This document shows, piece after piece, positions 7,625-52,086 of a DNA stretch of 64,000 nucleotides. This DNA comes from Clostridia bacterium (GTDB taxonomy: Bacteria; Bacillota; Clostridia; UBA1212; UBA1255). Made by a program: the position numbers and the translations under genes. Numbering within the stretch: the stretch's first letter is position 1; each line of letters starts with the position of its first letter. The notes under the pieces were generated by a model. The model was not told where the DNA came from. It ran no database searches and saw only the letters and a program-made list of their open reading frames with translations. The DNA lies in assembly GCA_016287565.1 (NCBI GenBank), contig JAEFAM010000004.1, positions 33,703 to 97,702 of the forward strand. Direction: 5' to 3'.

Positions 7625-7948
7625 CTGCAACGGGGGACAGACCCCGGTTGCCGAACCGGCCGCGAACGAGGGACAGACTTGCGTTCGCCGCTTTTCCCGG
7701 AATTTTCGAAAAATTACAGGCATATTTCGAATATTTACGGGGAAATTCTACGGGCGGTAGAATTTCGGCAACCGGGGTCTGTCCCCCGTTGCAGGTTTAG
7801 CTCGCACGCCAGTGCGGATTTAGCTTGCCCGAAGGGCAAATTTAGCTGCGTGCCGTGCACGCAATTTAGCTCGCACGCCAGTGCGGATTTAGCTTGCCCG
7901 AAGGGCAAATTTCGCTTAAGAACGGGGACCTGTCCCCCGTTCGCGGCC
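7625..7948. repeat. Composite palindromic element A: REP-like end, ~110-bp AT-richer core, inverted REP-like end, then 5-hairpin linker array and GGGGACCTGTCCCC unit
   Basis: gcaacgggggacagaccccggttgc ... caaccggggtctgtcccccgttgca ... gcttgcccgaagggcaaatttagct / gcgtgccgtgcacgcaatttagct. Confidence 0.92.
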
Positions 7949-15936: not shown

Positions 15937-16126
15937 CCTGCAACGGGGGACAGACCCCGGTTGCGGAGCGAAATAGAACGGGGGACAGGTACCCGTTTCG
16001 CTTGCCCGAAGGGCAAATTTAGCTGCGTGCCCGGCACGCAATTTAGCTCGCACGTTAGTGCGAATTTAGCTTGCCCGAAGGGCAAATTTCGCTCCATAAC
16101 CGGGGTCTGTCCCCCGTTGCGCTGCA
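15937..16126. repeat. Composite palindromic element B (REP-like inverted ends + 4-hairpin linker array)
   Basis: cctgcaacgggggacagaccccggttgc ... hairpins with aatttagct/aatttcgct linkers ... aaccggggtctgtcccccgttgc. Confidence 0.92.
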
Positions 16127-37331: not shown

Positions 37332-39029
37332 TCAATCGAATTCCACGCAGAACGGGACGGCGATGTTGCCCGTGCCGGAGCAGAGATTGGCCTCGTCGGT
37401 GGAGAAGTAGCGGATCTCGGGCGCGTACCTCACGCCTTTGGCGTTGTCAACGGCGATCCGGATCCGGTTGCCCTCGATGACCGGTTCGGCCTTCTGCCAC
37501 TTGCCCCCGACCTTGACCTCGAACCCGGCCAGCGCCGCACCGTCGACCGTCTTGAGTCCGCCGCCTGCGTAGCTGAATTCCACGAGGATCTCCTTGTCGT
37601 TGTAACCGATCTTGGAGGGGACAGGGAACCCGGCGTTTTCCATATCGCCGATGCCGTAGACGATCGCCGCGGCCATCTGGGCGCCTCTCTGGCCCAGCTC
37701 CAGCTTGTAGTAAGGATGGGCTCCGTCTCCGTCTCCGTCTTTCCAGCCCACGTCGATGGAAGGAATGACTTCGTAATTGGAGATGCTGCCGTCGATCTTG
37801 ACCGCGGACTGGGCGTAGCGCATTTCGGGCACCGTATCCCAGACGCCTTCGAGCTTGACGCCGCCGCTCTCGTATCCGTAGGACGTGAGTTGCACGTTGA
37901 GGAACAGCAGGTCGGAACCGAATTTTGCCCGGTAATCTTCCACGGTGGCCTTGAGCGCTATAGTGTAGTCATCCGACTCGTCCGTGTCGGATTCGCCCTG
38001 GTAAAAGATCATGCCGGTGATGCCTACTTTGGTCAACGGCGCCATGAACGCGTTGTAGATCCCGGCGGGTGGCATATTTATGTTGTTCAGCGTGAGCGAC
38101 CGGTTCCTGAGGGAAGCTGGGAATTTTTGCAGCGCGTCTTCGGAGACCAGCAGGGACAACGGCGCGCCTCCGCAGGCGGCCATTATGATGCCGATGGGCA
38201 CGTCGGGGTTCAGCGTGTAGAGCTCTTTTGCGAAGAAGTAGCCCAGCATGGAGAAACTGGTGCCGGAGCCGCCGTACACTCTCTTGCGCTCCCCGATCTG
38301 CCATTTGGTGGCTTTGGGCACGTCCGTCTGAGGTGTCGCCATACGCTTCTGGCCCGTTTTGTTAAGCAGATCCCAGTTGATCTGGCGCATTATGCGGATG
38401 TTGTCCTCCGCGGTGGCGCCGTCAAGGTATTCTCCGTAGAGTTTTCTGAGGTCCGTGGTGGATTGAGCCACCGTGCCCGTAAAGGTGAGGTCCGCGTTGC
38501 TCTGCCCGGACACTACCCAGATGTCTCCCACGAGCACGTCGGTGTATTCCTTGACAACGCCTTCCGCTCCCTTTACTGTGAGCGTGTGGCCTTTCTCGCC
38601 GCTGGCGGGCAACGTTCCCGCGAGCGCAAAGCAGAATTCTCCGTTCTCGATCGTGCCGGATCCTTTCAGCCCCTTGAATTCCGCGGCAACGACTTTTCCG
38701 TTTTCGGATTCGGGGGCCGTTCCCCAGATGACGATCTTGCGGTCCCTGGGTACCACCATGTCGTTGTTGAAGTAGTTGGCCACGGTGAATTCCTGCGCTG
38801 TTCCGGCCACGGGCTCGTACTGCTCGGGCACTTTAGTGGTGTCGGTGAAGGCTTCTCCCGCTTCCCGGCCCGACGTCCAGATCGTGTAATCCTTCCATTC
38901 GTCTGGTTCTTCGGTGGCTTTGGCGGGGTCGTCCCCGGATTGGCCGTTTTGCGATGTTCCGGCGCATGAGGAGCAGACTGCCATTATCAGGGCAAGTATC
39001 AGAAGCAGCGCGCGTGTGTGTTTTTTCAT
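37332..39029 (-). CDS. Sialate O-acetylesterase-like (SGNH) lipoprotein
   Basis: Lipobox MAVCSSC; VLVGDIWVVSGQSNADLTFTG; GMIFYQGESDTDESDDY. Confidence 0.85.
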   Translation of the reverse strand: MKKHTRALLLILALIMAVCSSCAGTSQNGQSGDDPAKATEEPDEWKDYTIWTSGREAGEAFTDTTKVPEQYEPVAGTAQEFTVANYFNNDMVVPRDRKIVIWGTAPESENGKVVAAEFKGLKGSGTIENGEFCFALAGTLPASGEKGHTLTVKGAEGVVKEYTDVLVGDIWVVSGQSNADLTFTGTVAQSTTDLRKLYGEYLDGATAEDNIRIMRQINWDLLNKTGQKRMATPQTDVPKATKWQIGERKRVYGGSGTSFSMLGYFFAKELYTLNPDVPIGIIMAACGGAPLSLLVSEDALQKFPASLRNRSLTLNNINMPPAGIYNAFMAPLTKVGITGMIFYQGESDTDESDDYTIALKATVEDYRAKFGSDLLFLNVQLTSYGYESGGVKLEGVWDTVPEMRYAQSAVKIDGSISNYEVIPSIDVGWKDGDGDGAHPYYKLELGQRGAQMAAAIVYGIGDMENAGFPVPSKIGYNDKEILVEFSYAGGGLKTVDGAALAGFEVKVGGKWQKAEPVIEGNRIRIAVDNAKGVRYAPEIRYFSTDEANLCSGTGNIAVPFCVEFD

Positions 39030-39218
39030 AACGTCCTCCGATTAAGTATCTTTTTTCGTTTTTCGTCAACGATCTGCGTGTCGTTTTGGGTCAACGTTGT
39101 ATTCGTCGTTTTTCGTATCGTTTTGCGTCAACGATCGTTTGTTTTTGCGTTTGATTGCCGGTTTTCAGTATAGGCTTTTCGGCGGGATTAGTCAATAAAA
39201 AAGGAAGCGGCAACGAAA

Positions 39219-39372
39219 GTGATATTCGTGCTGGGGCACGAGTGATATTCCGCTGCGCGGAGTGATATTCGCCTGCGGCGAGTGATATTGTGCTGCGCAC
39301 AGCTAAATTCGGCCTGGCAGCTGAGCTAAATTGAAAGCCGATAGCTTTCAGCTAAATTCCGCTGCGCGGAAC
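39219..39372. repeat. Seven-module hairpin array with constant linkers (agtgatatt x4, agctaaatt x3)
   Basis: agtgatatt-CGTGCtgggGCACG / CCGCtgcGCGG / CGCCtgcGGCG / GTGCtgcGCAC, then agctaaatt-CGGCctggcagctg / GAAAGCcgataGCTTTC / CCGCtgcGCGG. Confidence 0.93.
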
Positions 39373-39674
39373 GAAGGTGGATCATTTTTGCTTTGCACTC
39401 ATTCTGGGCTTCGAAGCAGCGCCACCTTCTTTAAAACGCCCATTATTTTGAAAAAAGCGGCAAAATGTGGGTGTTTCTCGCTCGATTCAAGCGCACAGAC
39501 AGCGCCGTCTTCTCCCTAACTGGGAAGGAAAGCGACAGATTGCCGTTTGCACCTTCTTCCAAACGTCGAATGGCTGCGGCGGTACGCTGTTTCCGCCTCG
39601 TTGACGCTTCACTTCCCCCTTGCTGCCGCCTCGCTCTGACCTCGCTCTGGCCTCATTCCAGCCTCGCTCCGGCC

Positions 39675-41588
39675 TCACTCCAGCTCGAAGGCGCCGGTGT
39701 ACAGCTGGTAGTACGTGCCGCGCTGCGCGATGAGCTGGTCGTGATTGCCCCGCTCGATGATCCGCCCGTGGTCCAGCACCATAATGACGTCGGAATTCAT
39801 GACAGTCGACAGGCGGTGCGCGATGACGAAAACGGTGCGGCCTTCCATAAGTTTGTCCATGCCCCGCTGCACGATGCTCTCGGTCCTGGTGTCGATGGAG
39901 GAGGTGGCCTCGTCGAGGATCATTACAGGCGGATCCGCCACCGCCGCTCTGGCGATGGACAGGAGCTGCCTCTGGCCCTGGGACAGGTTGGAACCGCTGC
40001 CGGACAATTGCGTCTGGTACCCCTCGGGCAGTCGCGTTATGAAGCCGTCGGCGCCGGAAAGTTTTGCCGCGGCAATACATTCCTCGTCGGTGGCGTCAAG
40101 GCGGCCGTAACGGATGTTGTCCATGACGGTGCCGGTGAACAGGTTGGTCTCCTGGAGCACCAGGCCCAGCGAGCGGCGCAGGTCGCTCTTTTTGATCTTG
40201 TTTATATTGATCCCGTCGTAGCGGATCTTGCCGTCTGCGATGTCGTAGAAGCGGTTAAGCAGGTTGGTGATGGTGGTCTTGCCGGCGCCGGTGGCTCCCA
40301 CGAAGGCTACTTTCTGGCCGGGCTTTGCGTACAGCGATATGTCGTGGAGCACCTGCTTGTCCGGGTCGTAGCCGAAGTCCACGTCGAACATGCGGACGTC
40401 GCCCCGGAGAGGCGTGTAGGTGAGGGTGCCGTCGCCGTGGGGGTGCTTCCAGGCCCACTGGCCGGTCTTGACGTCGCTCTCGGTGACGTTGCCCTCGCTG
40501 TCGATCACTGCGTTCACCAGCGTCACGTAGCCGTCGTCGGTCTCCGGCGCCTCGTCGGTCAGGGAGAATACGCGCTGGGCGCCCGCCATTGCCATGGCAA
40601 TAAAGTTGACCTGCTGGGACACCTGGTTGATGTTGCCGGTGAACTGCTTGGTCATATTAAGGAAGGGGATGAGGATGCTGATGCCGAAAGCCAGGCCGGA
40701 CAACGACAGGTTGGGCACGTTGTTGATCATCAGGATGCCGCCGATCAGCGCCACCAGCACGTACAATACGTTGCCCAGGTTTATTATGATGGGGCCGAGC
40801 ATGTTGGCGAAAGCGTGGGCGCGGAAACTGTCCTCGAAAAGGGCGTCGTTGACCGCGTCGAAATCCCTGCCGCTCTGCTCTTCGTGGCAGAAGACCTTGA
40901 CCACTTTCTGGCCGTTCATCATTTCCTGGATGTAGCCCTCGGTCTTGCCCATGGCCTTCTGCTGGCGCACGAAATATTTGGAAGAATTGCCGCCCACCGT
41001 TTTCGATACCAGCAGCATGACGACGACGCCCAGCAGCACCAGCAGCATCATCCAGACGCTGAAATACGCCATTATGAACAGCACGGTCAATACTATCACG
41101 CCGGACTGCAGCACCACCGGCAGCGTCTCGGATACCACCTGGCGGATGGCGTCAATATCGTTGGTGTAGTAGCTCATTATATCGCCGTAGCTGTTGCGAT
41201 CGAAGTAGCGGATGGGCAGGTTCTGCATGTTGTTGAACATCTGCTTGCGCATCTGGAACAGGAATGCCTGGGTTATATAGGCGGACAACTGTCTGTATAC
41301 GAGTATGGCGATGACGCTCAGGGTGTAGAGCACGATGAGCAGCGTGACCTGGGGCACGATCTCCTGCTTGGCGGCGGCCCAGTCGCCGGATTCGTAATAT
41401 TTGCCGATGGTGGCGATGACCTTCTGGAGGAACATGGAGGGGATGGAGCTGACGACGGCGGAGAATATGATGAATACGGCGGTCAGCGTGGACAGGCCGG
41501 GGTAGTACTTGAAGAGGAGCTTGATGATGCGGCCGAGGACTTTGAAGTCGATGCGGCGGGTCTTTTTTTTGTTGTCAGGCATTGTCAT
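39675..41588 (-). CDS. Heterodimeric ABC exporter subunit (canonical NBD)
   Basis: GATGAGKTTITNL, NLSQGQRQLLSIARA, MILDEATSSIDTRTE; TMD-NBD architecture. Confidence 0.93.
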   Translation of the reverse strand: MTMPDNKKKTRRIDFKVLGRIIKLLFKYYPGLSTLTAVFIIFSAVVSSIPSMFLQKVIATIGKYYESGDWAAAKQEIVPQVTLLIVLYTLSVIAILVYRQLSAYITQAFLFQMRKQMFNNMQNLPIRYFDRNSYGDIMSYYTNDIDAIRQVVSETLPVVLQSGVIVLTVLFIMAYFSVWMMLLVLLGVVVMLLVSKTVGGNSSKYFVRQQKAMGKTEGYIQEMMNGQKVVKVFCHEEQSGRDFDAVNDALFEDSFRAHAFANMLGPIIINLGNVLYVLVALIGGILMINNVPNLSLSGLAFGISILIPFLNMTKQFTGNINQVSQQVNFIAMAMAGAQRVFSLTDEAPETDDGYVTLVNAVIDSEGNVTESDVKTGQWAWKHPHGDGTLTYTPLRGDVRMFDVDFGYDPDKQVLHDISLYAKPGQKVAFVGATGAGKTTITNLLNRFYDIADGKIRYDGININKIKKSDLRRSLGLVLQETNLFTGTVMDNIRYGRLDATDEECIAAAKLSGADGFITRLPEGYQTQLSGSGSNLSQGQRQLLSIARAAVADPPVMILDEATSSIDTRTESIVQRGMDKLMEGRTVFVIAHRLSTVMNSDVIMVLDHGRIIERGNHDQLIAQRGTYYQLYTGAFELE

Positions 41589-43446
41589 CAGCCTCCTTTC
41601 CTTCGGAGGATGCGGCGGGGGAGTCATTGACGGTCCGGTCGACGGATGCGGTTTCGTCGGCGGTTTCGTTGACGCATTCGCTGACGGTCTCGCCGGCCGC
41701 GCTTGCGGCTGCGTTGCTTCCGCGGTTCTGCTGCTCGTACGTCTCTCTGTAGGCCGCGTTGTTCTTCATAAGTTCGTCGTGGGTCCCCACCGCCGTTATC
41801 CTGCCGTGGTCCAGCAGCACGATCATATCCGCATCCATAACGGAAGCCACCCGCTGGGCGATTATGATCTTGGTAGTCTCGGGGATGTATTTGCGGAAAC
41901 CTTCGCGTATCAGCGCGTCAGTGCGCGTGTCCACGGCGCTGGTGGAGTCGTCGAGGATCAGTATCTTCGGTTTTTTAAGCAGGGCGCGGGCAATGCACAG
42001 CCTCTGCCTCTGGCCGCCGGACACGTTGGTGCCGCCCTGGTCGATCTGGGTCTCGTACCCGTCGGGGAAGGACAATATGAAATCTTCCGCCTGGGCCAGC
42101 CTGCAGGCCTCAGAGATCTCCTCCTGAGTTGCCCCCGGATCGCCCCAGCGCAGGTTTTCGTTGATCGTGCCGGAGAAAAGCAGGTTCTTCTGGAGGACCA
42201 TTGCCACGCCGTCACGGAGCGTGTTCAGGTCGTAGTCCCTTACGTCCACGCCGCCTACGGTCACGCACCCGCCGGTCACGTCGTAAAGCCGCGGGATCAG
42301 CTGGACGAGGGAAGTCTTGCCCGCGCCGGTGATGCCCAGGATGCCTACCGTGCTTCCCGAGGGGACGTCAAGATCGATGCCGGACAGCGTGGCGTTTTCC
42401 GCCCGTTTGGAATAGCTGAATTCCACGTTTTCGAACCTGATGGAGCCGTCCTTCAGTTCGCGGACCGGTTCCGCCGGGTTTTTAAGGGCGGATTCTTCGG
42501 TCAGCACCTCGTCGATGCGCCGGGCGGATTCCGCAGACATGGTCAACGTCACGTAGATGAGCGAGATCATCATTAAAGATATCAATATCTGGAAGCCGTA
42601 GGTGAGCATGGCGGAGAGCTGGCCTACGTTGATGTAGTGCTGGGTGATGACGAGCTTCGAGCCGAACAGCAGCACGAAGACCATGTTGAAGTACAGGCAG
42701 ACCTGCATAAGGGGCCCGGTGAGGGCAACGATGCGCTCGGCTTTGGTGAAGTCGACCCGTATGTCGTCAGACGCAGCGTTGAACTTGTCCTTTTCGTACT
42801 GCTCCCGGGCAAAACCTTTGACCACCCGCATGGCCATCACGTTTTCTTCCACCGATTCGTTGAGCCGGTCGTATTTCCGGAAGACGCGGCGGAAGGCGGG
42901 CATGGCGTGGCGGGCAACTCCGATGAGTCCTGCGATGAGGACCGGTACGACGACAACGAACATGGTCGCCAGCACGCCTGCCATCCTGTAGGCCATTATG
43001 ATGGCGAACAGGAACATAAGGGGCGCCCTGATGGCGATGCGGATGATCATCATATATGACATCTGGACGTTGGCCACGTCGGTGGTGAGGCGGGTCACCA
43101 GCGAAGACGAGGAGAACCGGTCGATGTTGGAGAAGGAGTAGGTCTGGATCCTGAAAAACAGGTCGTGGCGCAGATTTTTTGCGAATCCCGCCGAAGCTTT
43201 GGCCGCCGTAAAACCGGCCAGGCCGCCGCAGGTGAGTGACAACACCGCCATTATCACCAGGATCAGCCCGTTTTTGGCGATGACGTCAATGCCGCAGCCG
43301 TCGTTTATGTCGTTGGTGAGGTTCGCGACAATAAACGGTATGATGCATTCTATTATGACTTCGCCGACAATGAATATCATGGTCAATATCGACGGTTTTT
43401 TGTATTCGCGCACCGATCTTGCCAGTTGCTTCAGGATCTTCAGCAT
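41575..43446 (-). CDS. Heterodimeric ABC exporter subunit (degenerate Walker B)
   Basis: GITGAGKTSLVQL, NVSGGQRQRLCIARA, ILILDDSTSAVD (D in place of catalytic E). Confidence 0.93.
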   Translation of the reverse strand: MLKILKQLARSVREYKKPSILTMIFIVGEVIIECIIPFIVANLTNDINDGCGIDVIAKNGLILVIMAVLSLTCGGLAGFTAAKASAGFAKNLRHDLFFRIQTYSFSNIDRFSSSSLVTRLTTDVANVQMSYMMIIRIAIRAPLMFLFAIIMAYRMAGVLATMFVVVVPVLIAGLIGVARHAMPAFRRVFRKYDRLNESVEENVMAMRVVKGFAREQYEKDKFNAASDDIRVDFTKAERIVALTGPLMQVCLYFNMVFVLLFGSKLVITQHYINVGQLSAMLTYGFQILISLMMISLIYVTLTMSAESARRIDEVLTEESALKNPAEPVRELKDGSIRFENVEFSYSKRAENATLSGIDLDVPSGSTVGILGITGAGKTSLVQLIPRLYDVTGGCVTVGGVDVRDYDLNTLRDGVAMVLQKNLLFSGTINENLRWGDPGATQEEISEACRLAQAEDFILSFPDGYETQIDQGGTNVSGGQRQRLCIARALLKKPKILILDDSTSAVDTRTDALIREGFRKYIPETTKIIIAQRVASVMDADMIVLLDHGRITAVGTHDELMKNNAAYRETYEQQNRGSNAAASAAGETVSECVNETADETASVDRTVNDSPAASSEGKEADDNA

Positions 43447-43555: not shown

Positions 43556-43935
43556 TGCAACGGGATGGACTTGGAGGCTGCAACGGGGGACACCGCAACG
43601 GGGGACAGACCCCGGTTGCACCCGCGGTTGCCGGACACGCCGCGAACGGGGGACAGACTTGCGTTCGCGGCTTTTCCCGGGATTTTTGAAAATTAACCGG
43701 CGATTTTCGTAAATTTTCGGCAAAATTCTACCGGCGGTAGAAATACGGCGACCGTGGAACGTCATCCTTTGGCGATGATCCCGCTTGCCCGAAGGGCAAA
43801 TTTAGCTGCGTGCAATGCACGCAATTTCGCTCGCACGCCAGTGCGAATTTCGCTTGCCCCCAGGGCAAATTTAGCTGAGCAACCGGGGTCTGTCCCCCGT
43901 TGCACCCCCCGTTGCACTGTCCCCCGTTGCACCGC
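43556..43935. repeat. Composite palindromic element E: multiple REP-like units, ~110-bp core related to element A, 4-hairpin array, inverted REP-like end
   Basis: gcaacgggggacagaccccggttgc; gcgaacgggggacagacttgcgttcgc core; gcgtgcaatgcacgcaatttcgct hairpins; caaccggggtctgtcccccgttgcac. Confidence 0.92.
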
Positions 43936-43964
43936 TTGCGCAACTTGACCTTATATGATATAAT
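43936..43964 (+). promoter_or_regulatory. Predicted promoter
   Basis: TTGCGC-17-TATAAT abutting element E and upstream of 44045 gene. Confidence 0.6.
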
Positions 43965-44044
43965 CTTCACGATGTGCGGGAGAGGCGTTGTTTCGTTGCC
44001 CTTGCCGCGTGTTGTGAATTCAAAAAATCATGGAGGAGATTTCT

Positions 44045-45388
44045 ATGAAGAAATTTGTTGCCCTTTTCCTCGTTATAGCGATGACGGTGGCTCTGTTCGG
44101 CATGGCTGCTTTTGCCGAAGACACCAATATTGCGCTTGGTAAAAACGTGGAAGTTGAAATGACGGAAGGCGCCGGCGACCCCAATATGGACGTGGGTTTC
44201 TGGGATAAAAACTACCTTACCGACGGCATTAACCCCGATAACGAAGCCGGCGTGTTCAATCACCTCGGCTGGTACGCCGGGACCACGACCCAGGAGGTCA
44301 ACATTGCCCTGACCATCGACCTTGAGATGGTGGCGGTAGTGTCCAGGATCGACCTTGTCCCTCAGAAGTTCCTTGTCGGACAGAGCGCTCCCAGCGACTT
44401 CACCGTGGCGGTATCCACCGACGGTTCCAGCTGGGACGTTGTAGGCGACATCCAGGGTAACGCGGGCGAGAGGACCGAGCCCTTCAGCTTCGGCGTTGAC
44501 AAGGACGTGCGTTTCGTCAAAGTTACGGTCACCAAAGCCAGCGGCATTGCCGACAACAGCTATTACTACAGCGGATTCGGCGAGATCGAAGTTTACGGCA
44601 CTGAGAAATCCGAAGTCGTTGTCGACACCCGCAAGAAAGAGGAATTCACCTGCGACAACGGTGGTATCGTCTGGGAAGGCAATTACTGGCTTTCCAACGA
44701 CACTTCCACTTCCCGCGCCACCGTGACCACCGGTATCGTTATCAACGCTTCCGATGCTGTCGAGGCGATGGGCGTTGTCAACTTCTGGGCCAGCAACCCC
44801 ACTAACGGAGATACTCCTCCCGCTGCGGCTGCGATCACCGTTTCCGTTTACAAGTACAATAAAGACTACGCCACCTCCAAGGCCGGCGGCGCCGTTGCCG
44901 AAGGTACCTTCATTCCTGCCGGTGACGACAACCTGAACCAGGAATTCGACGCCGAGGGCACGAACTGCAGATTTAAGAACTACAACGGTTCCAAGACCGG
45001 CATCATGATCGTTTTCAATTCCGCTCTTGAAGCAGGCCAGTACCTGATCGAGATCGCCGAGACCACCGATACTTCCGCCGAGCCCAAGGATCACTACCTC
45101 GTCATCCCCATGACTCAGCAGGAGTGGCCCAACGAGAAAGCTGCTTACTATATGAACGGCGAGCTCGACGAGGGCATCACCACCAGACTGGGAGTCATCT
45201 TCGCCGACAAGGGCAACCTCCTCGCCGTTGACCTCGACGCCACTTCCGGCAACGCTCAGACCGAGCCCGGCACCACCGAGCCCGAGACCAACGTCCAGAC
45301 CGGCGACGCCACCGTGGCAACCTTCGTTGTCCTGGCCGTCCTGGCAATGGGTGCCGCAGTCGTTCTCCTGAAGAAGAGAGCTTTCTGA
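44045..45388 (+). CDS. Secreted surface protein with F5/8-type C-like domain and C-terminal TM/Lys-Arg anchor
   Basis: MKKFVALFLVIAMTVALFGMAAFAEDTNIALGKNVEVEMTEG...YYYSGFGEIEVYG; NVQTGDATVATFVVLAVLAMGAAVVLLKKRAF. Confidence 0.8.
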   Translation: MKKFVALFLVIAMTVALFGMAAFAEDTNIALGKNVEVEMTEGAGDPNMDVGFWDKNYLTDGINPDNEAGVFNHLGWYAGTTTQEVNIALTIDLEMVAVVSRIDLVPQKFLVGQSAPSDFTVAVSTDGSSWDVVGDIQGNAGERTEPFSFGVDKDVRFVKVTVTKASGIADNSYYYSGFGEIEVYGTEKSEVVVDTRKKEEFTCDNGGIVWEGNYWLSNDTSTSRATVTTGIVINASDAVEAMGVVNFWASNPTNGDTPPAAAAITVSVYKYNKDYATSKAGGAVAEGTFIPAGDDNLNQEFDAEGTNCRFKNYNGSKTGIMIVFNSALEAGQYLIEIAETTDTSAEPKDHYLVIPMTQQEWPNEKAAYYMNGELDEGITTRLGVIFADKGNLLAVDLDATSGNAQTEPGTTEPETNVQTGDATVATFVVLAVLAMGAAVVLLKKRAF

Positions 45389-45428
45389 TATACGGCAAAC
45401 TAAGCTAAGATCTTGTTAATGATCTCAA

Positions 45429-45458
45429 GGCGCGCCCCGCAAGGGCGCGTCTTTTTTT
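45429..45458 (+). terminator. Rho-independent terminator
   Basis: ggcgcgccccgcaagggcgcgtcttttttt. Confidence 0.88.
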
Positions 45459-45473
45459 GCCTCGGACAAGCCC

Positions 45474-45686
45474 TGCAACGGGGGACAGACCCCGGTTGCA
45501 CGCGTACCTGTCCCCCGTTTCACGCTGCCGTGAAGCGGCAATTTCGCTGCGTGCAAGGCACGCAATTTAGCTCGCACGCCAGTGCGAATTTCGCTTGCCT
45601 GCAGGGCAAATTTCGCTGTGCAACCGGTACCTGTCCCCCGTTCGAAGGACTCTGCAACCGGGGTCTGTCCCCCGTTGCAACCAGGG
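45474..45686. repeat. Composite palindromic element F
   Basis: gcaacgggggacagaccccggttgc ... acgctgccgtgaagcggcaatttcgctgcgtgcaaggcacgcaatttagct... ... gcaaccggggtctgtcccccgttgc. Confidence 0.92.
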
Positions 45687-51711: not shown

Positions 51712-51898
51712 TGCAACGGTGGGTGCAACGGGGGACAGACCCCGGTTGGCGGACCGTTGGAACGGGGGACAGGTACCCGTTCTACGCTTGCCCGAAGGGC
51801 AAATTTCGCTGCGTGCCTGGCACGCAATTTAGCTCGCACGCCAGTGCGAATTTCGCTGTGCAACCGGGGTCTGTCCCCCGTTGCACCACGTTGCAGGC
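51712..51898. repeat. Composite palindromic element I
   Basis: tgcaacgggggacagaccccggttgg ... gaacgggggacaggtacccgttc ... 3 linker hairpins ... caaccggggtctgtcccccgttgca. Confidence 0.92.
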
Positions 51899-51948: not shown

Positions 51949-52086
51949 ACGCCGGCTCGTAAAAGTGCCGCCGGGTCTTACGCAACGGAATTTTGTGAAC
52001 CCCGTCAGGTCCGGGAGGAAGCAGCGGTAAGCGAACCCTTTCGTGTGCCGTAAGTCCCCCGACGGTACTTTTAGGAGCCGGCGTTT
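51949..52086 (+). ncRNA. ffs: Bacterial signal recognition particle RNA
   Basis: gtgaaccccgtcaggtccgggaggaagcagcggtaagcg apical motif; ends acgccggctcgtaaaagt / acttttaggagccggcgt pair; lies next to dnaX as usual in Firmicutes. Confidence 0.93.

Follow-up and report, generated by a model that had tools for sequence, protein, structure and literature searches.

The window analysed here is a stretch of 64,000 nucleotides from a Clostridia bacterium (GenBank assembly GCA_016287565.1, contig JAEFAM010000004.1, positions 33,703 to 97,702), and the element in question is an array of seven short hairpins that are joined by 9-nt linkers and lie between an ABC exporter operon and a carbohydrate esterase gene. 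The array was first noticed in a reading of the letters alone (referred to here as the sequence-only reading), which treated it as unexplained and offered a protein-binding array, an RNA-processing array or a hairpin-based mobile module as options. The features of the locus are as follows.

37332-39029, minus strand: SASA-type carbohydrate esterase, the next gene downstream
39197-39202, minus strand: T run of the terminator, from sequence
39204-39216, minus strand: probable 3' arm of the host terminator (TCGTTGCCGCTTC), pairing at 12 of 13 positions with 39598-39610
39217-39293, plus strand: match to Rfam RF01706 (Gut-1), full length (1-77)
39218-39369, plus strand: array of seven linker and hairpin units (AGTGATATT four times, then AGCTAAATT three times), half of an inverted-pair element, from linker positions, shuffles and spacer stems
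39227-39240: hairpin 1, CGTGC.GCACG
39250-39260: hairpin 2, CCGC.GCGG
39270-39280: hairpin 3, CGCC.GGCG
39290-39300: hairpin 4, GTGC.GCAC
39310-39323: hairpin 5, CGGCCTGGCAGCTG, imperfect
39333-39349: hairpin 6, GAAAGC.GCTTTC
39359-39369: hairpin 7, CCGC.GCGG
39370-39597, no strand assigned: core remnant with a long hairpin (AAACACCCA..TGGGCGTTT on the minus strand), which recurs beside other arrays of the same genome
39598-39610, minus strand: probable 5' arm of the host terminator (GAAGCGTCAACGA), from complementarity and predicted fold
39675-41627, minus strand: ABC exporter (ABC_membrane + ABC_tran), last gene of the operon whose terminator probably holds the element

The array and its Rfam match

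The AGTGATATT linker starts at positions 39218, 39241, 39261 and 39281 and the AGCTAAATT linker at 39301, 39324 and 39350 (9 nt each), and shuffling predicts only 0.17 and 0.19 copies of these respective 9-mers in the whole window, which confirms the seven-unit array that had been described. Six of the seven stems close perfectly, the exception being hairpin 5, in keeping with the claim that nearly all of them do. The linker had also been called fixed; the same 9-mers do repeat, but it is not strictly constant, as AGTGATGTT, AGCGAAATT, AGTGAGATT and others also occur. The spacers are palindromes that recur between loci (81% have a stem of at least 3 bp), which bears out the view that this is not a CRISPR array, where constant repeats separate unrelated, non-palindromic spacers. 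A mechanical 69-aa open reading frame (EYHSAQRNITRAPARISLSL...) runs through the array on the minus strand (39091-39300) and is probably a translation artefact of the repeats.

The array already has a name, as its first units score 74.3 bits against the Rfam family RF01706 (Gut-1), whose gathering score is 50 bits and whose consensus holds three hairpins with GUGAAAU joins. Gut-1 was put forward in 2010 by Weinberg et al. as a noncoding RNA found in environmental human-gut sequence only (PMC2864571). In the literature searched we found no other paper that mentions RF01706, and no earlier proposal that such arrays are modular, mobile, folded DNA. The Gut-1 model spans three units, a fragment of the full modular element, and Gut-1 remains a named but poorly understood family whose name tells little of its nature.

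Copies, complete elements and hairpin loops

Further arrays, on whose existence the sequence-only reading had hinged, abound in the window's own genome (G000, a 2.65-Mb draft). It contains 89 exact pairs of the form AGTGATATT-N4-24-AGTGATATT and 68 exact AGCTAAATT pairs (157 in total), and the reversed-pattern control yields 0. In stretches sampled at array loci of this genome, 80.6% of 284 linker-to-linker spacers close with an outer stem of 3 bp or more, as compared to 4.0% after shuffling. Both the pair counts and the stem frequencies show that the array is not a product of chance. Copies at loci with unrelated flanks reach 94% identity. Elements of this species are larger than the ~250-bp complete copies of G164 and G394 described below: a left array is followed by a core of ~85-nt units with long hairpins and then by a right, inverted array. 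The arrays also contain tandem block duplications, such as six units present twice in L071 and four units present twice in L075. The window copy is a half element, composed of the array at 39218-39369 and the core remnant at 39370-39597, within which positions 39374-39560 resemble L070, L071, L072, L074, L076, L079, L080 and L083 at 70-82% identity. The sequence-only reading described the array itself correctly but overlooked that such arrays have inverted partners, that the core recurs, that the terminator arms are complementary and that the hairpin loops are polar.

Complete copies in genomes G164 and G394 are ~250 bp long and reveal the plan of the element. On the left, a GAAAAAA-stem-TTTTTTC hairpin precedes four units of TGAAAT plus hairpin, which lead to a centre such as AAAGGATTTATTTT; on the right, three units of hairpin plus ATTTCA follow the centre, and the tail often ends in TTCTGCTTTGCCA or ATTCGGCTCTTCCA. 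Each complete copy thus combines two arrays in inverted orientation, the left linkers being the reverse complements of the right linkers. The AGTGATATT/AGTTATATT family follows the same plan around a ATATTCGCC..GGCGAATAT centre. Stem changes preserve pairing, the second point on which the sequence-only reading had depended: across 22 parsed elements, pairing is maintained in all copies (22/22) at many stem columns, which show two to four pair types (p ~0.001 against shuffled partners), one hairpin of this set being cut by the parser and two inner columns of another holding G.A mismatches. The 5' arm of the second hairpin co-varies with the centre (AAATCC/GGATTT, TTGCC/GGCAA and ACGCC/GGCGT).

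The hairpin loops are polar. On the strand with AATATCACT or ATTTCAC, counts summed over three sets show that three- and four-base loops are closed by C-G in 273 cases and by G-C in 6, that triloops are GNA in 90 cases and TNC in 2, and that C-G-closed tetraloops are GNNA in 84 cases and TNNC in 0. The preference of RNA for GNRA loops fails to explain this polarity, as only 38 GNRA loops were counted, with 4 as against 23 GNNA in the window's own genome. In DNA, c(GNNA)g is a stable tetraloop. GNA is reportedly the loop of exceptionally stable DNA mini-hairpins (Yoshizawa, 1997, as cited in PMC7432603), an example being d(GCGAAGC). The motif is shared with the early promoters of phage N4, whose small hairpins extrude below physiological superhelical density and depend for this on a C:G closing pair and on G and A in the loop (PMC4496689). 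The loop sequences suggest that the units may be maintained as DNA hairpins.

Copies of the element are widespread but patchy. Among 390 sampled Clostridia genomes, 63 contain RF01706 at E <= 0.001 (38 of them above the cut-off), spread over many families, and in the same phylum outside the class the family is rare (three sampled genomes). Within the window's genus, the window's own genome is the sole strong positive of this survey, and the AGTGATATT pair pattern was not found in six congeners. Linkers are lineage-specific (GTGAAAT, AGTGATATT, AGTTATATT and AGCTAAATT). A DNA-pattern scan of named genomes returned arrays from gut Clostridia of goat, sheep, deer, buffalo and yak, together with two Akkermansiaceae contigs, and 54 of its 117 loci were real arrays by the stem test. 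The family is therefore not confined to the human gut, being present in ruminant and other gut metagenome-assembled genomes (MAGs). The two Akkermansiaceae MAG contigs, which belong to a different phylum, carry real arrays with the same linkers (L204, L222), and a single-contig 3.8-Mb genome outside the class (G707, L422-L425) carries looser arrays with a TGAAGT/ACTTCA linker variant. Patchy presence combined with local amplification is the pattern of mobile DNA.

Landing sites and the nature of the element

The element lands at two kinds of site, both at the 3' ends of transcription units. In the GTGAAAT family, CCA stands immediately or one to two bases ahead of the element at 41 of 45 distinct sites (manual count), and ARAGORN placed many of these at the 3' ends of diverse tRNA genes and of two genes for tmRNA. 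Three elements lie directly 3' of tmRNA genes (L344, L404 and L213). Tandem copies begin after the CCA of the preceding copy, and copies of this family open with their own bidirectional terminator hairpin. Five copies of the AGTGATATT family adjoin tRNA or tmRNA genes, and none of 20 sampled loci in the window's own genome is close to a tRNA gene. At L401 (~740-1190), a separate insertion downstream of tRNA-Lys has apparently duplicated the 3' end of the tRNA (CTCCGATGGCTCACCA) before a hairpin element; the GCGCAGACGGGTACTGCA repeat of this locus recurs in L402.

A second subfamily resides inside rho-independent terminators, where the element is flanked by complementary, locus-specific arms, with an A run beyond one arm and a T run beyond the other (L261, L276, L242, L267, L278, L295, L307, L234 and L285). 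A flank-complementarity test over 70 loci gave a diluted result: a single subfamily sits in terminator loops, and related loci are among the off-diagonal controls. For the window copy, the terminator loop of the ABC operon is the probable location: its flanking arms adjoin the T run expected of that terminator, and the predicted minus-strand fold closes them at a pairing probability of 0.90-0.99 at every position but the mismatch. Arm pairing of 12/13 is also reached by about 1% of control positions in the window, so this evidence is suggestive rather than proof. Both types of landing would leave host termination working.

Of the options offered by the sequence-only reading, the hairpin-based mobile module is the best supported, as the same modules are found at many unrelated loci with sharp boundaries and with stem changes that preserve pairing; our analysis yielded no support for an RNA-processing array. 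With a probability of roughly 0.6, we interpret the array as the half copy of a non-autonomous mobile element, a chain of hairpins that acts as folded DNA and grows by tandem block duplication. In this reading, copies insert either directly after the CCA of a tRNA or tmRNA gene or within the loop of a rho-independent terminator. The C-GNA-G and C-GNNA-G loops that predominate on one strand would favour DNA hairpins, formed by extrusion under supercoiling or in single-stranded DNA, and the folded DNA could then be recognised by a recombinase or transposase acting in trans. Arrays in the window's species have lengthened through tandem duplication of multi-unit blocks. A more far-reaching version, which we hold to be doubtful, describes a new class of selfish element that spreads as folded single-stranded or supercoil-extruded DNA: a chain of exceptionally stable C-GNA-G mini-hairpins whose linkers would pair between the two halves to form a ladder of four-way junctions. 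It would land at tRNA and tmRNA CCA ends and in terminator loops, thereby leaving host termination intact, and would be moved by a recombinase that has no known role of this kind.

Several observations weigh against a mobile folded-DNA element. For the window copy, no empty site was recovered, as the congeners that lack the array differ in local synteny. No transposase was linked to the element, and no clear target-site duplication was seen. The loop preference could stem from a small number of ancestors. The tRNA-Met gene that bears a copy in G164 also bears one in G116 with different stems, which could reflect either repeated insertion at a hotspot or an old, fast-evolving resident. A search for PF01797 (Y1_Tnp) over the 390 genomes found Y1 transposases in 232 of them, with three matches in the window's own genome and none in G116, which is 98% complete and carries 11 Gut-1 matches. 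A Y1 (HUH) transposase was accordingly rejected as the general mobiliser, its presence being inconsistent across the survey. A cargo transposon was rejected as well, as the genes flanked by inverted arrays on C96 and C131 look ordinary by eye (serpin-like, UvrC-like) and are not transposases. Phage or plasmid origin was rejected on finding no match in phage and plasmid collections; among viral contigs listed by the linker pattern, a real array occurs in L102 only, and this is probably a prophage edge, as the contig also has a fucosidase-like gene beside head genes.

An RNA function would be the main rival to mobile folded DNA, although we consider it unlikely. Gut-1 would then be a true structured small RNA or a 3'-untranslated-region (3'-UTR) RNA whose hairpins act as RNA, and its copies would be paralogous RNA genes or 3'-end modules. 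The Rfam model and the 2010 proposal favour this explanation, as do the strong covariation, the tandem G.A mismatches retained in one hairpin of the G164 and G394 copies, and the location in the window, where the minus strand would belong to the 3' UTR of the ABC operon. It fits poorly with the wide variation in copy number, dispersal and unit number, with tRNA-linked arrays that transcription from the tRNA promoter would reach only past a terminator, and with GNA and GNNA loops that in the window's own genome are mostly not of the RNA GNRA type. Still less probable is a 3'-end module kept by the host to back up terminators, stabilise transcripts or act as an insulator, in line with some of the roles suggested for repetitive extragenic palindromes (REP) and bacterial interspersed mosaic elements (BIME): the position at gene 3' ends, the bidirectional hairpin that heads GTGAAAT-family copies and the arms that enclose the window copy would all suit it, but the elements are patchy even inside one genus, occur as tandem and nested copies, and form long arrays that would be superfluous for termination. 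A protein-binding array (a nucleoid-protein or gyrase site) could make use of the constant 9-nt linker or of extrudable hairpins with polar loops, but it is very improbable given the patchy distribution and the use of different linkers on the same plan in different lineages.

If the array is mobile folded DNA, an orphan 'RNA' family of 2010 becomes a probable mobile element made of DNA, with a wide distribution in gut Clostridia and a landing strategy that should spare host termination. Its sequences would also allow selection on hairpin loops of the DNA rather than the RNA type to be read in a natural setting and, should folded DNA be the active form, the arrays would illustrate clearly, on a chromosome, how DNA hairpins are selected for their ability to extrude.

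Other repeats in the window and comparison with known systems

The window contains a second family of elements at ~7625-7945, 15940-16120, 43595-43905, 45475-45675 and 51725-51885, in which GCAACGGGGGACAGACCCCGGTTGC palindromes flank a small array of near-fixed order (TGCCCGAAGGGCA, GCGTGC..GCACGC, CGCACGCCAGTGCG) and AATTTAGCT/AATTTCGCT serve as linkers. More than 30 copies of the CTGTCCCC palindrome are present in the window. A secreted-protein gene (43900-45475) lies between two second-family copies and may have been gained or lost between these repeats, as the matching stretch of the congener G006 is ~2 kb shorter. Three TCGTTTTTCGTCAACGATC-like repeats upstream of the esterase gene (39056-39136) are possible operators, and a bacterial small signal recognition particle (SRP) RNA gene is located at 51969-52067.

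Among known systems, Gut-1 itself belongs to the same family as the array by covariance score, sharing three linked hairpins and a GUGAAAU-type linker. However, Gut-1 was described as a three-hairpin noncoding RNA of the human gut, whereas the element is dispersed over many gut hosts, reaches about 20 units, and has an inverted partner and fixed landing sites. It resembles REP/BIME sequences and their TnpA_REP (RAYT) transposases, whose palindromes are recognised as single-stranded DNA hairpins, in having dispersed intergenic palindromes with a short constant tag, a small loop and composite arrays (PMC8266576). REP sequences are defined by a GTAG-type tetranucleotide directly before the palindrome (PMC8266576), whereas the linkers here are 7-9 nt long (AGTGATATT, AGCTAAATT, GTGAAAT) and lack GTAG, the stems are free to vary, and not every carrier genome has a Y1 enzyme. 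Elements derived from IS200/IS605 likewise have hairpin ends, and GTGAAAT-family copies are similar to them in having CCA before the left end and at the tail and no clear target duplication; they differ in their long internal chain of hairpins and in occurring in G116, which lacks a Y1_Tnp host transposase. Miniature inverted-repeat transposable elements are also short, non-coding and multi-copy with inverted halves, but the element described here is modular and variable in length, and its inverted halves consist of linkers, with no clean pair of terminal inverted repeats and target-site duplications seen. With the N4 early promoters it has only the DNA motif in common, namely small hairpins with a C:G closing pair and a loop G..A, and the array has neither a phage polymerase nor a promoter context.
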